From Sulfolobus sp. E5-1-F (lineage in GTDB: Archaea; Thermoproteota; Thermoprotei_A; Sulfolobales; Sulfolobaceae), in NCBI RefSeq assembly GCF_009601705.1, contig NZ_CP045687.1:656630-720629 (forward strand): DNA of 64,000 nucleotides, given 5' to 3'. Positions 4,310 through 17,299 of the stretch are shown one piece after another. The notes beneath the pieces are model-generated. The model was given only the letters and a program-made list of their open reading frames with translations. It was not told the DNA's origin and did not search any database. A program made the translations under genes and the position numbers. Each line of letters starts with the position of its first letter. Position 1 is the first letter of the stretch.

Positions 4310-4377
4310 ATATTTTTAAGGCTTTGTGGAATTCGAGTAAACAATATTTTTAAGGCTTCGTGGAGTCTAAATACACA
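4310..4377 (+). repeat. Imperfect tandem 34-bp duplication with TATA-like boxes
   Basis: Two units (4310-4343 and 4344-4377) both begin ATATTTTTAAGGCTT and end ACA. Each contains a TATA-like box, and the second ends directly before the ATG at 4378. The duplication creates two stacked promoter-like boxes in front of the truncated ATPase gene. Confidence 0.7.
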
Positions 4378-4683
4378 ATGATTGAAGATTATAACCCTTG
4401 GTGGATATCAAAGGATAGGATTAACGACTTGGATATATATAGAAAATTCGAGGAATCAGATGTAAAGTGGATTCCAGATGTAATTGACAAAGTCTCTCTT
4501 TTTCCTTACTCTCTAAATTTCATTTTAGGTCCTAGACAAGTTGGAAAATCCACGGCACTTATACTTCTCGTTAAGAAATTGTTGGAGAAAGTTAATCCGG
4601 GAGTGTTCTCATGCAGTCATCTTATTCGATATATTATTGTAAAAATATATCAGATTAGAAATTTTTATAATTACTCATCTTGA
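4378..4683 (+). pseudogene. Truncated AAA-family (DUF4143-linked type) ATPase
   Basis: The reading frame encodes the N-terminus of an archaeal ATPase. It opens MIEDYNPWW, followed by a Walker A motif (GPRQVGKST) at about residues 53-61. Coherence is lost after ~residue 73 (LLEKVNP), where the DNA turns into a dispersed repeat starting GGGAGTGTTCTC. Walker B, the sensor region and the C-terminal domain are missing, so the protein cannot be a working ATPase. The ATG at 4378 is preferred to an in-frame GTG at 4360, because the MIEDYNPWW start is what full-length relatives look like and the GTG lies inside the tandem duplication. Confidence 0.7.
4599..4676 (+). repeat. Dispersed repeat (family R), copy 1
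   Basis: A ~78-bp segment starting GGGAGTGTTCTC and continuing CAGTCATCTTATTCGAT. It recurs at 50201-50227 and, with a longer match, at 61714-61789. It truncates the upstream ATPase frame. No coding capacity or inverted ends are seen; the parent element was not identified. Confidence 0.6.
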
Positions 4684-5819: not shown

Positions 5820-6202
5820 AAATTATATTTTGTATGCCTTTAATAAAAACCTAATCCATCTTGCTTATGGTTATTTTATTAAGAGAATAAAAAGGTTAAG
5901 AATCTCTTATCAAGCTAAGTCGTTAGATAGAAAGTCGTAAGGTTTACGTTAGTTTATCATAAGCTCCTAGTAAGTTATAAAGGAATGTGTTTAGAAATGA
6001 AACATAGGGAGTAAATAAAAACAAAACAGTGCACCAAAAGCTTGAAGAATGAAAACATTTTTCAAGAGGAAGATTAAGAAGAATGAACAGGTTTATCTAT
6101 GACTTCAACAAATCCAAAAACACTTAACGCAAATTATCTTCGCAATGTAGCAAGTTAGTACATATTATGTGAATATACGCACATAACATTAATTTATTAT
6201 CC
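5820..6202. other. Intergenic region, no gene seen
   Basis: This 383-bp stretch holds the pirin promoter near its left end and A/T-rich sequence otherwise. A segment around 6090-6125 weakly resembles 27315-27350 and may be an old element fragment. No open frame of note. Confidence 0.5.
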
Positions 6203-6502
6203 TTAATGTATTTCCTTTTCTAAAACTTCCAATAATTTCTTAAGCTCATCGGCCTTTTTACTATACTCCTCTAATATTTTATGGAATTCAAGGCCTTTAC
6301 TTGTAATATAATAGAACTTATCATCTTTTCTGATTAATCCTAATTTCTCTACAAGTGGCAAATATTTTTCTGCAATATTGTAGCTTATGTTGGCTTTATA
6401 GATTAGCCTAGTCTTCAATACTCGCTCATGAACTACCGCGTTTAATATATCGTAAATGATTTCAAATTGTGTTCTCTTTCTCTTGTTAAACTTAAGAGCC
6501 AT
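6203..6502 (-). CDS. Sso10a-like winged-helix DNA-binding protein
   Basis: A 99-residue basic protein with an N-terminal winged helix-turn-helix (~residues 10-68, including FEIIYDILNAV and NISYNIAEKYL). A C-terminal amphipathic helix (~72-97, heptad pattern ending LKKLLEVLEKEI) is likely to dimerise as an antiparallel coiled coil. This is the architecture of Sso10a chromatin proteins and the related HTH_45 family. It could be a nucleoid protein or a transcription factor. It is monocistronic; the TATA-like box is within ~35 nt upstream of the start on the minus strand. Confidence 0.75.
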   Translation of the reverse strand: MALKFNKRKRTQFEIIYDILNAVVHERVLKTRLIYKANISYNIAEKYLPLVEKLGLIRKDDKFYYITSKGLEFHKILEEYSKKADELKKLLEVLEKEIH

Positions 6503-6779
6503 AAACCTATTTATGCTTGTATTTATATAAGGATTTCCTCGAATATGCTCTTATTAGATATACAAGTTACGTAAAATTTTATCTATATACTTGTTGGGAT
6601 AATACCTTTTTTCCATCTTGTTAAATTTGAATATTTCAATGTAGCAGAAAGACTACCACTTTTATTGGAGGAAAACCCTTAAGTTTAGTCTCCTTCTGAA
6701 CCAATTCGTGTAATGACCAACTTTTCCGCTTATGCGAAAAATTAACGATTCACGCTTAAATACCTTTTCATAGAGAAGT

Positions 6780-7775
6780 TCAGCTAAGTTTATTTATAAT
6801 AATATATACTACCGCACCCACTACTATGCTCATTTCAACACTTTCAGCAATTAAGGGTAATATTGGATTTAGTATGAATAAAAAGTTAAGTATTTGAGGA
6901 GGTAAGAGTTCAAGCAATATTTCAATACTTACTACCTCAGAGTGTAAACCTGGAGAGAAAGTGTAAAGGAGAAAGATTAGATTGAGAGATACATTTTGTA
7001 ATTTGAGGCTAGGTGAATGTAGAATTATCAAGGGTATTTTTAATAAGAAAGGATGATAATTCACGTTAAGAGTTATCGGGATTGTTGAATATGGAGGTAC
7101 AGCTCCCAAATTATTACTGAATTGCCTAGGTATTAATGGAGCATTTGGTACTGAGTTCCACATTATCTCCGTAAATATAACATGAGGGGAAAAGAGAATC
7201 ATGAATGTTATGAAAGAGAGGACTATAAACGCTATTGCAAAAGTTTTAGGATCCGCTACTTTCCTCCTATTTCTCCTTCTAACTGTTAGAACTACTTGAT
7301 TTCTATCATATACTTCACTGATACCATATATGACAAAAATTACTATCATGGCTACTATATAGCCCGTTGTTCCCCTTATTAGACCTATTAAATTGCCCAC
7401 GTAAGGAATAATTATGGGCTGTCCAAATATTTCTGGCACAAATCCCTTAATCCATGAGGATTTTACGATCCAAGGATCTGAAGTAGGGTTATTTATTCCC
7501 TTGACGATGTATCCATTACTGGTTACGTTAATGATTTCATGAACTACGTAATAGTTTAAGAAAGGCGGTTTATATGCTATTATCTCACCAGGAGAAAGCT
7601 TTCCCATAATGGGAAAAACAAAAACTAGATCTCCAGGCTTCAGTAAAGGATACATAGAATTTGTTGCCTCAATATTCCAACCATATGGTAGATGATATAT
7701 CATTTGCGAAATTACAGAAAATATTATACTAACAAGAAAGAGAGAAACTAAAAATATTGCTATTAGTTTGATCAC
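6780..7775 (-). CDS. SipW/Sec11-type signal peptidase with extra C-terminal membrane region
   Basis: A 331-residue membrane protein. TM1 spans ~3-24. The S26B active site follows: Ser40 in NSMYPLLKPGD, His79 in VVHEI, and Asp100 in the GINNPTSDPW region, i.e. the Ser-His-Asp arrangement of archaeal and ER signal peptidases. Further TM segments lie at ~136-152, ~178-198 and ~290-328, with an extracytoplasmic domain of ~90 residues between the last two. The gene lies directly downstream of, and on the same strand as, a small secreted pilin-like gene (7883-8386). That pairing recalls SipW with TasA, so a dedicated pilin-processing role is inferred. Confidence 0.8.
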   Translation of the reverse strand: MIKLIAIFLVSLFLVSIIFSVISQMIYHLPYGWNIEATNSMYPLLKPGDLVFVFPIMGKLSPGEIIAYKPPFLNYYVVHEIINVTSNGYIVKGINNPTSDPWIVKSSWIKGFVPEIFGQPIIIPYVGNLIGLIRGTTGYIVAMIVIFVIYGISEVYDRNQVVLTVRRRNRRKVADPKTFAIAFIVLSFITFMILFSPHVIFTEIMWNSVPNAPLIPRQFSNNLGAVPPYSTIPITLNVNYHPFLLKIPLIILHSPSLKLQNVSLNLIFLLYTFSPGLHSEVVSIEILLELLPPQILNFLFILNPILPLIAESVEMSIVVGAVVYIIINKLS

Positions 7776-7882
7776 GGGTCATCACGTTATTAGCATATTA
7801 TTTTACTTTAAAATTTATTTTATAAAAATATAGAATTAAAAAATAAATTACCTTTATATTACTCACCTACTTTTTTGTGCTA

Positions 7883-8386
7883 TTATGAAGTAGCAGTAAC
7901 TATTATAAGGAACTTAGCGTGTCCTTGAGTTCCACCAGTTGCTAGCCTTAAGCTGATTGATTGTGAGTGTCCCGCAGCTAAAGTGAACATGTAGCTAGTT
8001 GATGGTCCAGATGGTGTTAGTATGTATAGATTTGTTCCGGATGGTACGCTAACCGGCATCACTGTTATTGTTATGGTTGCAGTAGTGTTCAAATCGTTAG
8101 ATACATCAAATGCGTACAATAATGTTTCGTTAGCGTATGTTGCTACGTCACCAAAGTTTATTTGTAGATCTCCAGAACTATTATAGTTTACGAATGGTAT
8201 ACCTGTCGAAGACCAACCGTGTGCTGTATCGTTTGCAACTAAGTTTATATTTGCAGATGGATCCGCTACGACGGTTGCATTTACATCTCTCGCAGCTGTA
8301 TATTGGAATGTTAGTGAAGCTACCATTGATATTAGTAGTATTCCTGCTACTATGCCTATTATTAGGGCTTTAGTTGTGTGTTGCAT
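7883..8386 (-). CDS. Secreted beta-rich pilin-like protein (TasA/AbpA/thread-type candidate)
   Basis: A 167-residue protein with a non-class-III signal sequence. Hydrophobic residues ~7-28 end near QYTAA, and the mature part would begin around RDVNATVVADP. The mature part is rich in Thr, Ser, Val and Asn with alternating hydrophobic residues, no Cys and few charges. It includes an INFGDV...YAFDVSN...TATITITVMP stretch typical of a single Ig-like jelly-roll. This resembles donor-strand-exchange filament subunits (TasA, AbpA of Pyrobaculum, the Sulfolobus thread subunit) in size and layout. It is co-directional with the signal peptidase gene and divergent from three membrane-protein genes. Function is inferred; homology needs structure prediction. 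Confidence 0.6.
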   Translation of the reverse strand: MQHTTKALIIGIVAGILLISMVASLTFQYTAARDVNATVVADPSANINLVANDTAHGWSSTGIPFVNYNSSGDLQINFGDVATYANETLLYAFDVSNDLNTTATITITVMPVSVPSGTNLYILTPSGPSTSYMFTLAAGHSQSISLRLATGGTQGHAKFLIIVTATS

Positions 8387-8579
8387 TGTAGTTCTAAATC
8401 TATGTAAGGAATGGACATTTTTAAATATTTCTCCTAATTCAGCTATTTTAACAATATGATTTTAAAAGATTAAATGTTAAATTTGACATTATTATATGGA
8501 AAAAGACCTTACATTTTATATGTAATTTACGTTAATTATAGGGTTAGATTAAAATGTCTATATAAAGTATGTTGTATAT

Positions 8580-8894
8580 ATGAAGTGGTATTATATCGTA
8601 GCTATCATCATTGTTTCGACTCTAGCTCCGCTTTTCGCTATATATTCTATGAATCTTTCACTAAGTGAAAGCTTTTCAGTTAATGCTAATGTAATTGACT
8701 CTTTTATCACTGTTGATGGAAATTACACCATTATAAGGAACGTCTATAACTTTACTGTAACTGTTTATTATGGAAACTATACTGCAGTCCTATATCCAGG
8801 TGAATTAGTAAGTTTTCCCTATCAACAAGGTAGTAGTGTTATTTTAAAGGCAAATAGTTTTGAGGAGGTAGTTAAGGTAATTGAGGTGAACTAA
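8580..8894 (+). CDS. Small membrane-anchored extracellular protein of the pilus-like locus
   Basis: A 104-residue protein with one N-terminal TM (~4-22) and a ~80-residue extracytoplasmic beta-type domain carrying NxT sequons (GNYTII, YNFTV, GNYTAV). It starts at ATG 8580 and ends one base before the GTG of the next gene, so the two are translationally coupled. No family recognised. It lies divergent to the pilin-like gene with a 193-bp shared promoter region. A minor pilin, an adaptor or an anchor are options. Confidence 0.65.
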   Translation: MKWYYIVAIIIVSTLAPLFAIYSMNLSLSESFSVNANVIDSFITVDGNYTIIRNVYNFTVTVYYGNYTAVLYPGELVSFPYQQGSSVILKANSFEEVVKVIEVN

Positions 8895-8895
8895 T

Positions 8896-10197
8896 GTGAT
8901 TAAGGTAAAGATTAATAAAAATTTAAGAATTGGACTTATTTCTCTCCTAATACTTTTCATTGCGATAGCATCTTATTTCGATTACGAAAGTACTGTTCCT
9001 CATATTGTTTTAGCTGGCTATCAACTCAAAAGTGAGATGACTTTCACATCTCAAGGTTTATTAAAGATTTATCCTGTTGGTGAGAGTAAATTTATAGGTT
9101 ATACCAACGTCTCTAAACCTCTTGCTTACTTAGGTCTTTCTACCTACGCTTATGTCATAAATTCTATCTTGTATAATAACGCTAGCGTGGTTTACAACCA
9201 AACATACTATTTCCTAAAGTTAACGAAAATAATGTTTCTAAAGTTTAACGTTTCCAATCTAAATTACAAGATATATATAACAACACCTTATTATAGTAAG
9301 CTGATTACTCAGAATTTAACGCATTACGGGATAATACCGATAAATATAACCTCGATTTATAATCTATATCGTATTTTGGAGAACGAGACAGAAGTGTATG
9401 TAGAACCCACTATCAACGTAATTATCAACGGTTCAGCGGTTGTTAGTTTAAACATAAATGGAGATGTCATTTCTGTTGATTTTATTAAGAATACTATAAC
9501 GAGTGTTGTGGAGAAACCATCCTATGGTAAGTTGATTAGCCTAGAAGAGTATCCCATGTCTCAACTTATGGTCCTTTACATCTATCCAAACTTCTACCCT
9601 AATCCTCTATCTGAAAACTATTCAATATTACTAAGTGTTGACAATTTTAACTTCACTGTAGAAAAAGGTAGTTCTCAGAATTACATTCCATTAAATATTT
9701 CACAACTCTATTCTATAGCTAAGAATTTTACATATACTTACAATTTAACTCCTACTACACCTATAATCTACTTAAATTTTACAGCGAGATATCCTAACTT
9801 TACCTTCAGACCTTTTATTGAGATAGTAGATAATAACGGTATGATTCAAGTTCAAGCATCTAACAATTCCATAATCTCTCCAGTCTATAAGACGATTGAC
9901 GATCCCATAAACTACCTTAACTTAATGTACATTATACTGCCTTCGGCAATATTAGTTTACCTATTATTATTTTCACAAAGTATTTCTAAGACACCCTTAG
10001 ATATTATTATGAAGAAATATAGGAAGCTAATAGTAAGCGTTAATGATCCATCACCTCATGAAAAGAAGATAATTAGGGTTAACAATTTCGGTGATCTGCT
10101 CAAATTATCACAGATTTTAGCTAAACCTATTTTAGCAAAAGAAAATAAATTGTGGGTAGATAATGAGAATTTAATCTATATATATGAGTTAACGTAA
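8896..10197 (+). CDS. DUF5305-like bitopic membrane protein
   Basis: A 433-residue protein with TM1 at ~10-28, a large N-glycosylation-rich extracellular region (~30-345), TM2 (~350-367) and a cytoplasmic tail. The tail ends in a pattern (IIRVNNFGDLLKLSQIL, then PIL, then a final IYIYEL) that matches the C-terminal signature I know for DUF5305, a family often encoded beside signal peptidases and TasA-like proteins in archaea. The GTG start at 8896 overlaps the preceding stop region. It is likely to act in anchoring, assembly or regulation of the extracellular filament; this is inference from context. Confidence 0.6.
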   Translation: MIKVKINKNLRIGLISLLILFIAIASYFDYESTVPHIVLAGYQLKSEMTFTSQGLLKIYPVGESKFIGYTNVSKPLAYLGLSTYAYVINSILYNNASVVYNQTYYFLKLTKIMFLKFNVSNLNYKIYITTPYYSKLITQNLTHYGIIPINITSIYNLYRILENETEVYVEPTINVIINGSAVVSLNINGDVISVDFIKNTITSVVEKPSYGKLISLEEYPMSQLMVLYIYPNFYPNPLSENYSILLSVDNFNFTVEKGSSQNYIPLNISQLYSIAKNFTYTYNLTPTTPIIYLNFTARYPNFTFRPFIEIVDNNGMIQVQASNNSIISPVYKTIDDPINYLNLMYIILPSAILVYLLLFSQSISKTPLDIIMKKYRKLIVSVNDPSPHEKKIIRVNNFGDLLKLSQILAKPILAKENKLWVDNENLIYIYELT

Positions 10198-10253
10198 AAG
10201 TTTTAAGAAAATATTTTTTATCTACAAAATAAAAGTATTATTAAGTTTGCGAA

Positions 10254-10802
10254 ATGAGTCAATTCTTACAATTAATACTAGTGGGTGTTTTCGCAGTAGG
10301 CTATTTCGATTTTCTTTTCATGATATCGAATTCTATGAGAAAAAGAGTGAAACTGTTGAGAGAGAAATTAAAGGTGGAGTTCCCATTAAGGTTTCTACAG
10401 AAGAGTGTTGACTTCCTTTCCTCGAGCGAGTTCGCTGAGCTGATGAATGAACTTTCTATTATAATGAATATTAGTAAGATTAATAAGAATAATTTAATTA
10501 AGGATTTTTACTCTAGATCTCCCAAGATAGAAAAAGAATTAGAGGATTTATTGATGTTAATAAGCATAGCTAATAAAATTGACAGCTTAGCAAAAGATAT
10601 GGAGAGAAAATCTACATTAGTCAGAGTTGCTGCTATACTTATTTTACTTGATACTATTGCAGTATTTGTTATATTGAATTACTATCCTAGCCTAAACATT
10701 ATGATGTATTTCATTTTAGTTGGGATAATGATAGGACTATTATTCATCATTTTCGAATCACTTATTGTCTACTATAATAGTGAAAGATACATAAAAATTT
10801 AA
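10254..10802 (+). CDS. Three-TM membrane protein of the pilus-like locus
   Basis: A 182-residue protein with one N-terminal TM (~4-24), a ~95-residue basic then acidic cytoplasmic helical region, and two C-terminal TM segments (~124-142, ~147-170). No family recognised. It sits 56 bp after the DUF5305-like gene in the same direction. The TM-helical domain-2TM plan is loosely like platform-type membrane proteins, but it is far shorter than TadC/FlaJ and no motif supports that. Confidence 0.55.
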   Translation: MSQFLQLILVGVFAVGYFDFLFMISNSMRKRVKLLREKLKVEFPLRFLQKSVDFLSSSEFAELMNELSIIMNISKINKNNLIKDFYSRSPKIEKELEDLLMLISIANKIDSLAKDMERKSTLVRVAAILILLDTIAVFVILNYYPSLNIMMYFILVGIMIGLLFIIFESLIVYYNSERYIKI

Positions 10803-11344
10803 TTTTGATATATAAACGAAGGAAATTTTGCTCATTCTGACTTCTCTCATTCTTTAACGATAGAGCTAAAATCTCCATTTAAAAATGAATTTAGTAATCT
10901 AAACTCTGTTTTAGATAAATTTACTTTAAATAGCTTTATATCTTTATTAAATATTTATGTATAGCAGTTATCTTCTAAACTCATAATATTAACTGTTCAT
11001 ATTTTTTACGATCTAATACACAAAGTGTTTCGATATAACGATATGTATCTATAGTAGTTGTATCATTCTTATAGGACGTCTTTATGAAAGTGTTTAAGGT
11101 AAAGCATGTTCGAGGTAAATAAAGTACTACTATCAAAAAGAAGATGATTTGGTAAACTCTATTCTTCTTTGTGTCATACACCGAATCACAAAGTTACAAT
11201 CTTGTAACCAACATTTACGCAACCTAAGATTTTTGTATATTGGACAGTACATTACTTTTTAAATGTTATTAATTTAAGTTTTTGTAAAATATAATAAAGA
11301 ATTTATTAACTTCTAGGCAAATTGTATATTGGTGAGTGTAAAAG
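10803..11344. other. 542-bp intergenic region, no gene seen
   Basis: A/T-rich. Minus-strand frames of up to ~66 codons have no ribosome-binding or composition support. The right end carries the leader of the TusA-like gene, including a GGTGAG ribosome-binding site at about 11332-11337, seven bases before its ATG. Confidence 0.5.
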
Positions 11345-16360: not shown

Positions 16361-17231
16361 CTCCCAATGCCCTTCTCAGACTATATTTAATTGCCCTTAC
16401 TGTTAGTACTCCAGCCATTGCCTTCTTGTATTCTCCGGGTGGACCAAATGGTTCTTCGACTGGTGTAATCTCTTCAGTAACTACTTTTCCAACATCCTTA
16501 ATCAGACTATCATTTATCTTATTTCCCTTAAGCAACTCCTCAGCCTTAGTTACCTTAACTGGGTTATTAGCAGCTCCTCCTATTGCGATCCCAGCCTCCT
16601 TAACGGTACCATCATAGTCCAAGGATAAGTTAACTGCAGTAGAGACTATAGCGAAATCTCCAACTCTTCTCTCTAATTTTATATAATGACCTCCGTTTCT
16701 AGGTTGAGGAATTGGGATTCTTACCTCAGTCAAAATCTCATCTGGTCTTAGTGCAGTTTGGAAGGGGCCTAAAAAGAAATCCTTCGCTTTAATAACCCTA
16801 TTCCCAGACAGACTAGTAGCTACAAACTCAGCGTTGTATGCTAGCATTACGGCGGGTAAATTATTTCCTGGGTGATTATAGCACACATTTCCTCCAACTG
16901 TTCCCCAATTCCTAACTATTGGATCAGCTATATGCTTAACAGCTTCGTGAAGTAATGGATACTTAGATTTTATCAAATCTGAAAACTCTAAATCGGAATA
17001 CCTAGTAAGAGCACCTATTTTTAAATACCCATCAGATTCATTAATATACGAGAGATTAGGAATATTATTCACATCAATTATGTACTTAGGAGAGACTATT
17101 CTCAATTTCATTGCTATTATCAAGCTCTGCCCCCCAGCTAATACCTTAGCCTCTTCACTATACTTAGAAAGAAGTTCTAATGCTTCCTTAAGTTCACTCG
17201 GAGCATAATAGTCAAACGGCGCAGGATACAC
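16353..17231 (-). CDS. coxM: CO dehydrogenase medium FAD-binding subunit
   Basis: A 292-residue FAD_binding_5 protein with the two flavin motifs of CoxM: AGGQSLI (~32-38) and [13 protein letters not shown] (~111-123). The C-terminal CODH_FAD_C domain follows. It passes electrons from the small subunit onward to the quinone pool or a soluble acceptor. First of the three structural genes, 68 bp after the XdhC-YHS gene, with an A/T-rich stretch in between that could hold an internal promoter. Confidence 0.93.
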
Positions 17232-17299
17232 TTATCTCACTGTTTAATAATCAGTGTATCAGCATAAAAAGGTAATTATATCTAATAATACATATTTCA

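Follow-up and report, generated by a model that had tools for sequence, protein, structure and literature searches.

How archaeal donor-strand filaments are put together is still open: for the thread of Sulfolobus acidocaldarius, no chaperone or usher was found and assembly was left unknown (PMC9715654). Here, we ask whether a group of genes in a 64,000-nucleotide stretch of DNA (the window; bases 656630–720629 of a single-contig 2.54 Mb genome) encodes such a filament together with the means to build it. The source belongs to the Sulfolobaceae, a placement indicated by relatives that include Metallosphaera javensis and Sulfolobus sp. UBA167. In our assessment, the locus probably encodes a donor-strand pilus of the AbpA/TasA type, built around a pilin (PIL), a dedicated signal peptidase (PEP), a small pilin-like protein (SML) and two further membrane proteins (D53 and MEM). 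The initial annotation had read it as the kit for a thread- or bundling-type (TasA/AbpA) filament; the AbpA/TasA side of this reading is supported by the PIL fold and the peptidase class, and the thread side is not supported, the Asp-YYY motif being absent.

We found no description of such a locus in Sulfolobales in the literature; the survey of relatives in the AbpA paper may include some. A self-contained pilus kit appears to be undescribed in this archaeal group, and it would be a second candidate donor-strand filament for Sulfolobales beside the thread. The cassette is compact, discrete and dispensable at the genus level, and it supplies named candidates for each step of assembly: a subunit, a peptidase with an extra domain, a possible initiator, a membrane base and a regulator. 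The host order has good genetics, which makes the assembly question directly testable.

Gene set of the locus

The five genes on which the argument rests are as follows (TM, transmembrane).

7883–8386, minus strand: PIL, pilin of 167 amino acids; signal helix 3–23, proposed cleavage after V22-A-S24, free putative donor-strand segment at about 25–43, beta-sandwich 47–166, five N-X-S/T sequons
6780–7775, minus strand: PEP, dedicated Sec11/SipW-type signal peptidase of 331 amino acids; GTG start, first TM helix, catalytic domain (S40, H79, D100), two TM helices, extracytoplasmic beta-sandwich 199–288, TM helix 306–330
8580–8894, plus strand: SML, small pilin-like protein of 104 amino acids; signal/TM helix, alternating post-signal strand resembling that of PIL, small remainder rich in beta structure; proposed as an initiator, a cap or a base subunit
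8896–10197, plus strand: D53, DUF5305-like membrane protein of 433 amino acids; N-terminal TM helix, duplicated ectodomain with 16 sequons, TM helix at about 343–361, conserved tail that is cytosolic by topology
10254–10802, plus strand: MEM, membrane protein of 182 amino acids; N-terminal TM helix, a polar middle that is probably helical, and two TM helices at the C-terminus; found in most loci

All five open reading frames lie in the window at the positions and on the strands first annotated. SML, D53 and MEM diverge from PIL and PEP, with 193 bases between PIL and SML, and PEP starts 107 bases beyond the end of PIL (leftward order PIL, PEP). None of the five proteins contains cysteine. Because conserved homologues keep the same order in two other genomes (65–73% identity for PIL and PEP, 66–67% for D53 and about 50% for SML), the reading frames are genes and not chance. 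The set is larger than the five first proposed, since a winged-helix gene at 6203–6502 also belongs to it. Genes for an assembly ATPase or a platform protein were found neither in the window locus nor in the related loci examined.

Predicted fold and processing of the pilin

The AlphaFold2 monomer model of PIL, built from 11 sequences (predicted local distance difference test score, pLDDT, 76.7), consists of a signal helix, an unordered stretch at 33–43, which is the sole stretch with pLDDT below 50, and a beta-sandwich at 47–166. In a Foldseek search of 350,542 PDB chains with this model, rank 1 went to 7UEG, that is, AbpA of the archaeal bundling pilus of Pyrobaculum calidifontis (Wang et al. 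2022, cited in PMC9674648), with E = 6.5 × 10−4 and a probability of 1.00, and no other match fell below 10−3. VIA-align, which re-aligns Foldseek matches, also placed 7UEG first (Z = 7.2 over 125 residues at 3.4 Å). Its runners-up were the PapG pilin domain, a self-assembling protease fibre (Vpr), CsuA/B, and PapD-like and Caf1M-type chaperone domains, mainly donor-strand pilins (PapG, CsuA/B) and donor-strand chaperones. A Z of about 7 is weak alone; the clear first place and the kind of runners-up make the match of this model useful. The structural comparison suggested in the initial annotation has thus yielded a pilin model in which a beta-sandwich follows an unattached N-terminal segment, closest in the PDB to AbpA and next to chaperone–usher pilins. 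Like PIL, AbpA is a beta-sandwich with an N-terminal extension after the signal helix; the two are about 7% identical over the aligned residues, and bundling is a feature of AbpA that PIL may or may not share.

The thread subunit 7PNB and the solved TasA structures were not among the best 50 Foldseek or VIA-align rows for PIL, which is not evidence of different folds. A single-sequence search of the PDB with PIL gave no match. The class 5 pilin CfaB, reached at 8 × 10−4 by the PIL profile in the PDB, was set aside as suggestive only, the match running through a triple fusion and single-domain chains giving at least 0.06.

The residues V22-x-S24 are conserved in an alignment of 11 PIL family members and agree with the −3,−1 rule; F27, Y29, R33 and D42 are invariant. 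A donor strand must alternate hydrophobic and polar residues, and the segment F27–D42 does so, as strongly as was seen in only 35 of 5000 joint column shuffles. This N-terminal strand would be the one donated to the next subunit. The aromatic residues shortly after the cleavage site recall the P2' phenylalanine of TasA, a residue that hinders ordinary peptidases and that SipW can handle (PMC10269814).

The same N-terminus bears on a different explanation, namely that PIL resembles type IV pilins and is cut by PibD ahead of a hydrophobic helix that would pack in a helical core, with PEP processing something else. Sulfolobales commonly have class III pilins (PMC9715654), and a K/R-A-hydrophobic string of class III type lies near the N-terminus of 9 of the 11 family members. 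The string is missing from the other two, class III cleavage does not require the V-x-S conserved after the helix, and the fold matches donor-strand pilins. Together with the missing assembly ATPase and platform genes and with a dedicated Sec11-type peptidase that accompanies PIL in 9 of 9 genomes, this makes a type IV pilin quite unlikely. The signal peptide had been described at the outset as not of class III; the case for this is made by the conserved V-x-S site and the fold, and not by a missing motif, as a PibD-like K-A-L string does occur.

One genome (G125, locus L016) carries three pilin paralogues (7167–7694, 10502–11032 and 16735–17289) that share a signal and donor-strand region at 96–100% and differ in the head (48–70%); one of them has a run of about 17 prolines. 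Judged from these sequences, the joining part seems to be fixed and the surface variable.

Peptidase, small pilin-like protein and membrane partners

In NCBIfam, PEP matches archaeal signal peptidase I (TIGR02228, 1.7 × 10−12; 47.5 bits, cut-off 51.85) and SipW (5.9 × 10−5). Its profile finds human SEC11C at 4 × 10−6 with the catalytic residues aligned to those of SEC11, and S40, H79 and D100 do not vary among 13 sequences. The PEP model matches SEC11A/C at Z = 10.1 and SipA of Streptococcus, which is required for pilus polymerisation, at Z = 9.4. PEP is a Ser-His signal peptidase of the Sec11/SipW type. As first described, it has an extra extracytoplasmic domain and additional TM segments: in the model, an N-terminal TM helix, two central ones and a C-terminal one, with a seven-strand beta-rich domain (199–288) anchored in the membrane on both sides. 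Nor is it the general housekeeping enzyme, which is a separate 141-amino-acid gene; short peptidase genes of about 140 codons occur in nearly every Sulfolobaceae genome, the source genome included.

The PEP ectodomain scored 21.8 against the PIL profile, above all 60 column shuffles (mean 10.1, s.d. 2.1) and the reversed sequence (13.5), with an hhalign probability of about 6%. We put forward the hypothesis that it is a pilin-like docking domain. More tentatively, PEP might also be the assembly machine, its ectodomain accepting the donor strand at cleavage and handing the subunit to the growing pilus; we hold this to be possible but doubtful. If true, PEP would be a one-protein replacement for the bacterial chaperone and usher.

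In SML, the stretch after the TM helix aligns with PIL residues 20–43 (profile comparison score 24.2; shuffles mean 10.0, s.d. 2.0, maximum 18.2). The likeness is plain by eye in two relatives, where SML reads FTYTTQIPVYVNI and FTYTTDISVRAHV and PIL reads FSYSATRIVSINV and FTYTATRSFTVNV. Sequence likeness of this kind suggests that SML is probably cut by the same enzyme and able to offer a strand, whereas the 60 residues that are left seem too few to make a complete acceptor; it would thus have what a cap, an initiator or a base subunit needs. Roles of this type have been proposed for Saci_0405 and TapA (PMC9715654, PMC10151520).

The arrangement is close to that of TasA/TapA/SipW in Bacillus subtilis (PMC9674648, PMC10151520), where one locus likewise brings together a dedicated Ser-His peptidase, the major pilin and another, small protein that bears a strand, with donor-strand logic. 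PEP differs from SipW in its extra extracytoplasmic beta-sandwich and additional TM helices; the DUF5305-like, MEM and winged-helix partners are found on the side of our locus, and no significant sequence similarity was found between PIL and TasA.

The thread of S. acidocaldarius (Saci_0406/0405) also offers itself for comparison, being a donor-strand filament of the same order with a proposed small cap protein that resembles the subunit (PMC9715654). That our locus is a version of the thread system could be argued from the shared order and donor-strand idea and from the five N-glycosylation sequons in each subunit (PMC9715654). Once cleaved, however, thread subunits have Asp at their start and a YYY motif, and no dedicated peptidase is reported among the genes that the thread paper discusses (PMC9715654), whereas the PIL locus has such a peptidase and none of the 11 PIL members has either Asp or YYY at that point. 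We rejected this identity as very improbable.

D53 alone matches DUF5305 (PF17231) at E = 6 × 10−4 and 19.7 bits, under the cut-off of 29. At the family level, 9 of 12 members match, the best at 5.4 × 10−9, and the family profile finds accepted DUF5305 members at 2 × 10−19. The sequences are clearly related, and we regard the D53 family as homologous to DUF5305, hence the label DUF5305-like; the C-terminal DUF5305 pattern first noted in D53 is real, if weak and below the cut-off for this protein by itself. The D53 ectodomain is duplicated (N-terminal half against C-terminal half, 96% probability, E = 2.6 × 10−9) and carries 16 N-glycosylation sequons. Compared with the D53 ectodomain, the PIL sequence scored no better than a reversed sequence.

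The link between DUF5305 and SipW/TasA neighbourhoods, stated in the initial annotation, was borne out in other Thermoproteota. Of the surroundings of 16 DUF5305 genes, accepted or nearly so, 8 hold a long SipW-type peptidase together with secreted proteins that begin in the TasA manner, and several of the 8 non-matching ones reach a contig edge. These loci resemble ours in gene content; their secreted proteins have another post-signal motif (A-M/L-W ... NTG), and most of their peptidases have more TM helices. We found no paper that names DUF5305.

Could PIL be a surface glycoprotein that does not polymerise, secreted or membrane-bound (an adhesin or S-layer accessory protein), with PEP as its maturation enzyme? 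Extracellular beta-sandwich folds are common, some PIL members have polyproline inserts and no filament has been shown. AbpA nevertheless ranks first among all the chains searched, the N-terminal strand of PIL is free and alternates in polarity, SML has the same strand, and the context is that of DUF5305 and SipW. We consider this explanation unlikely.

Several observations weigh against a donor-strand pilus of the AbpA/TasA type. No filament has been seen; the PIL model (pLDDT 77) was built from 11 sequences, and a Z of 7.2 lies within the range that VIA-align labels common. The class III-like string in 9 of 11 pilins has been noted above. At the sequence level, no link between PIL and AbpA or between PIL and TasA is significant; a profile search of PIL family members with the TasA model gave no match, DUF1102 matches one family member at E = 0.01, and the PIL profile scored against the DUF5305-linked TasA-type proteins above all 60 shuffles, yet with a probability of about 5%.

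As we picture the AbpA/TasA-type pilus, PIL would be exported by Sec and cut by PEP after V22-A-S24, which would free the N-terminal strand at about 25–43. This strand would complete the beta-sandwich of the following subunit, so that subunits join head to tail into a filament that is probably glycosylated. SML shares the cleavage and strand region, but its body is much smaller; it would probably start, cap or base the filament, and the extra beta-sandwich of PEP would probably keep hold of the subunit after the cut, until strands are exchanged. The membrane base would consist of D53 and MEM, with expression under the control of the winged-helix protein. Of this picture, the gene set and its joint inheritance, the class and ectodomain of the peptidase, the PIL fold, the D53 duplication and the conserved PIL promoter core are results of computation, whereas the cleavage site, the exchange of strands, the roles of SML, the PEP ectodomain, D53, MEM and the winged-helix protein, and the filament as such are proposed.

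Distribution of the cassette and its probable regulation

PIL occurs in 9 of 31 Sulfolobaceae genomes, in 7 of 147 genomes of an order-level sample (including one weak match) and in 10 of 229 at the class level. The tenth of these, in genome G145 (E = 5 × 10−4), is spurious, being an Ig-like repeat protein and not a pilin, and PIL is confined to Sulfolobaceae in the genomes searched. The long form of PEP paired with PIL occurs in exactly the same nine genomes, D53 is present wherever contigs allow, and the whole set co-occurs in all nine as far as contigs reach. The proposed conservation of gene order holds, the peptidase–pilin and small protein–DUF5305 arrangement being kept in four genomes (G119, G078, G141 and G090). 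By genus the kit is patchy: it occurs in 1 of the 7 genomes of the window's own genus, the other 6 lacking it, in 3 of 4 genomes of the genus that holds the nearest cassette relatives, and in none of several other genera.

Pairwise distances of PIL, PEP, SML and D53 are highly correlated (r = 0.88–0.97; Mantel test of four pairs, no more than 3 of 5000 in each), and the set has therefore been inherited together. In a congener (G146), the products of the flanking pirin and vWA genes are 97% and 84% identical and the DNA to either side aligns at about 90%, and 5.3 kb of the window (5890–11189) is replaced there by 1.1 kb with an unrelated 362-amino-acid ATPase gene (L086, 4246–5336). The whole kit, including the winged-helix gene, is therefore one replaceable cassette at a variable site. 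Among repeats that could mark insertion at the cassette ends, only short ones at chance level were found.

A second version of the locus (L021, L022, L023 and L024) occurs in three genomes of the Metallosphaera genus group and in G146. It lacks PIL and has a long peptidase of the same architecture, accompanied by a single-TM protein of about 140 amino acids, a shorter DUF5305-like protein, a MEM-like protein, winged-helix genes and a secreted protein of 233 or 259 amino acids. From its gene content, we read it as what may be the same kit with another pilin.

Two further features concern regulation.

6203–6502, minus strand: HTH, Sso10a-type winged-helix DNA-binding protein of 99 amino acids; probable local regulator
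8420–8431, minus strand: promoter core of PIL, GAAATATTTAAA (BRE/TATA-like), about 40 nucleotides 5' of the PIL start codon, inside the divergent intergenic region 8387–8579

HTH matches NF053610 (Sso10a winged-helix) at 76.4 bits against a cut-off of 60. The gene is present in the window cassette and in every related locus that is not truncated, although the genome has no more than nine of these genes above the cut-off; we regard the protein as the probable local regulator. The promoter core of PIL is invariant in four genomes.

To the right of D53 in L013 and L014, winged-helix and MEM genes extend over several kb, with two winged-helix copies in each and a second MEM in L013; the regulator and MEM thus seem to move together. 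In the window, a reading frame of 107 amino acids to the left of the pirin gene (4360–4683) resembles the start of an AAA-type ATPase and is probably a truncated gene. A possible adhesin, a surface protein of 578 amino acids that has TM helices at its two ends (L015, 12937–14673), lies 2.8 kb from the pilus locus of G141.

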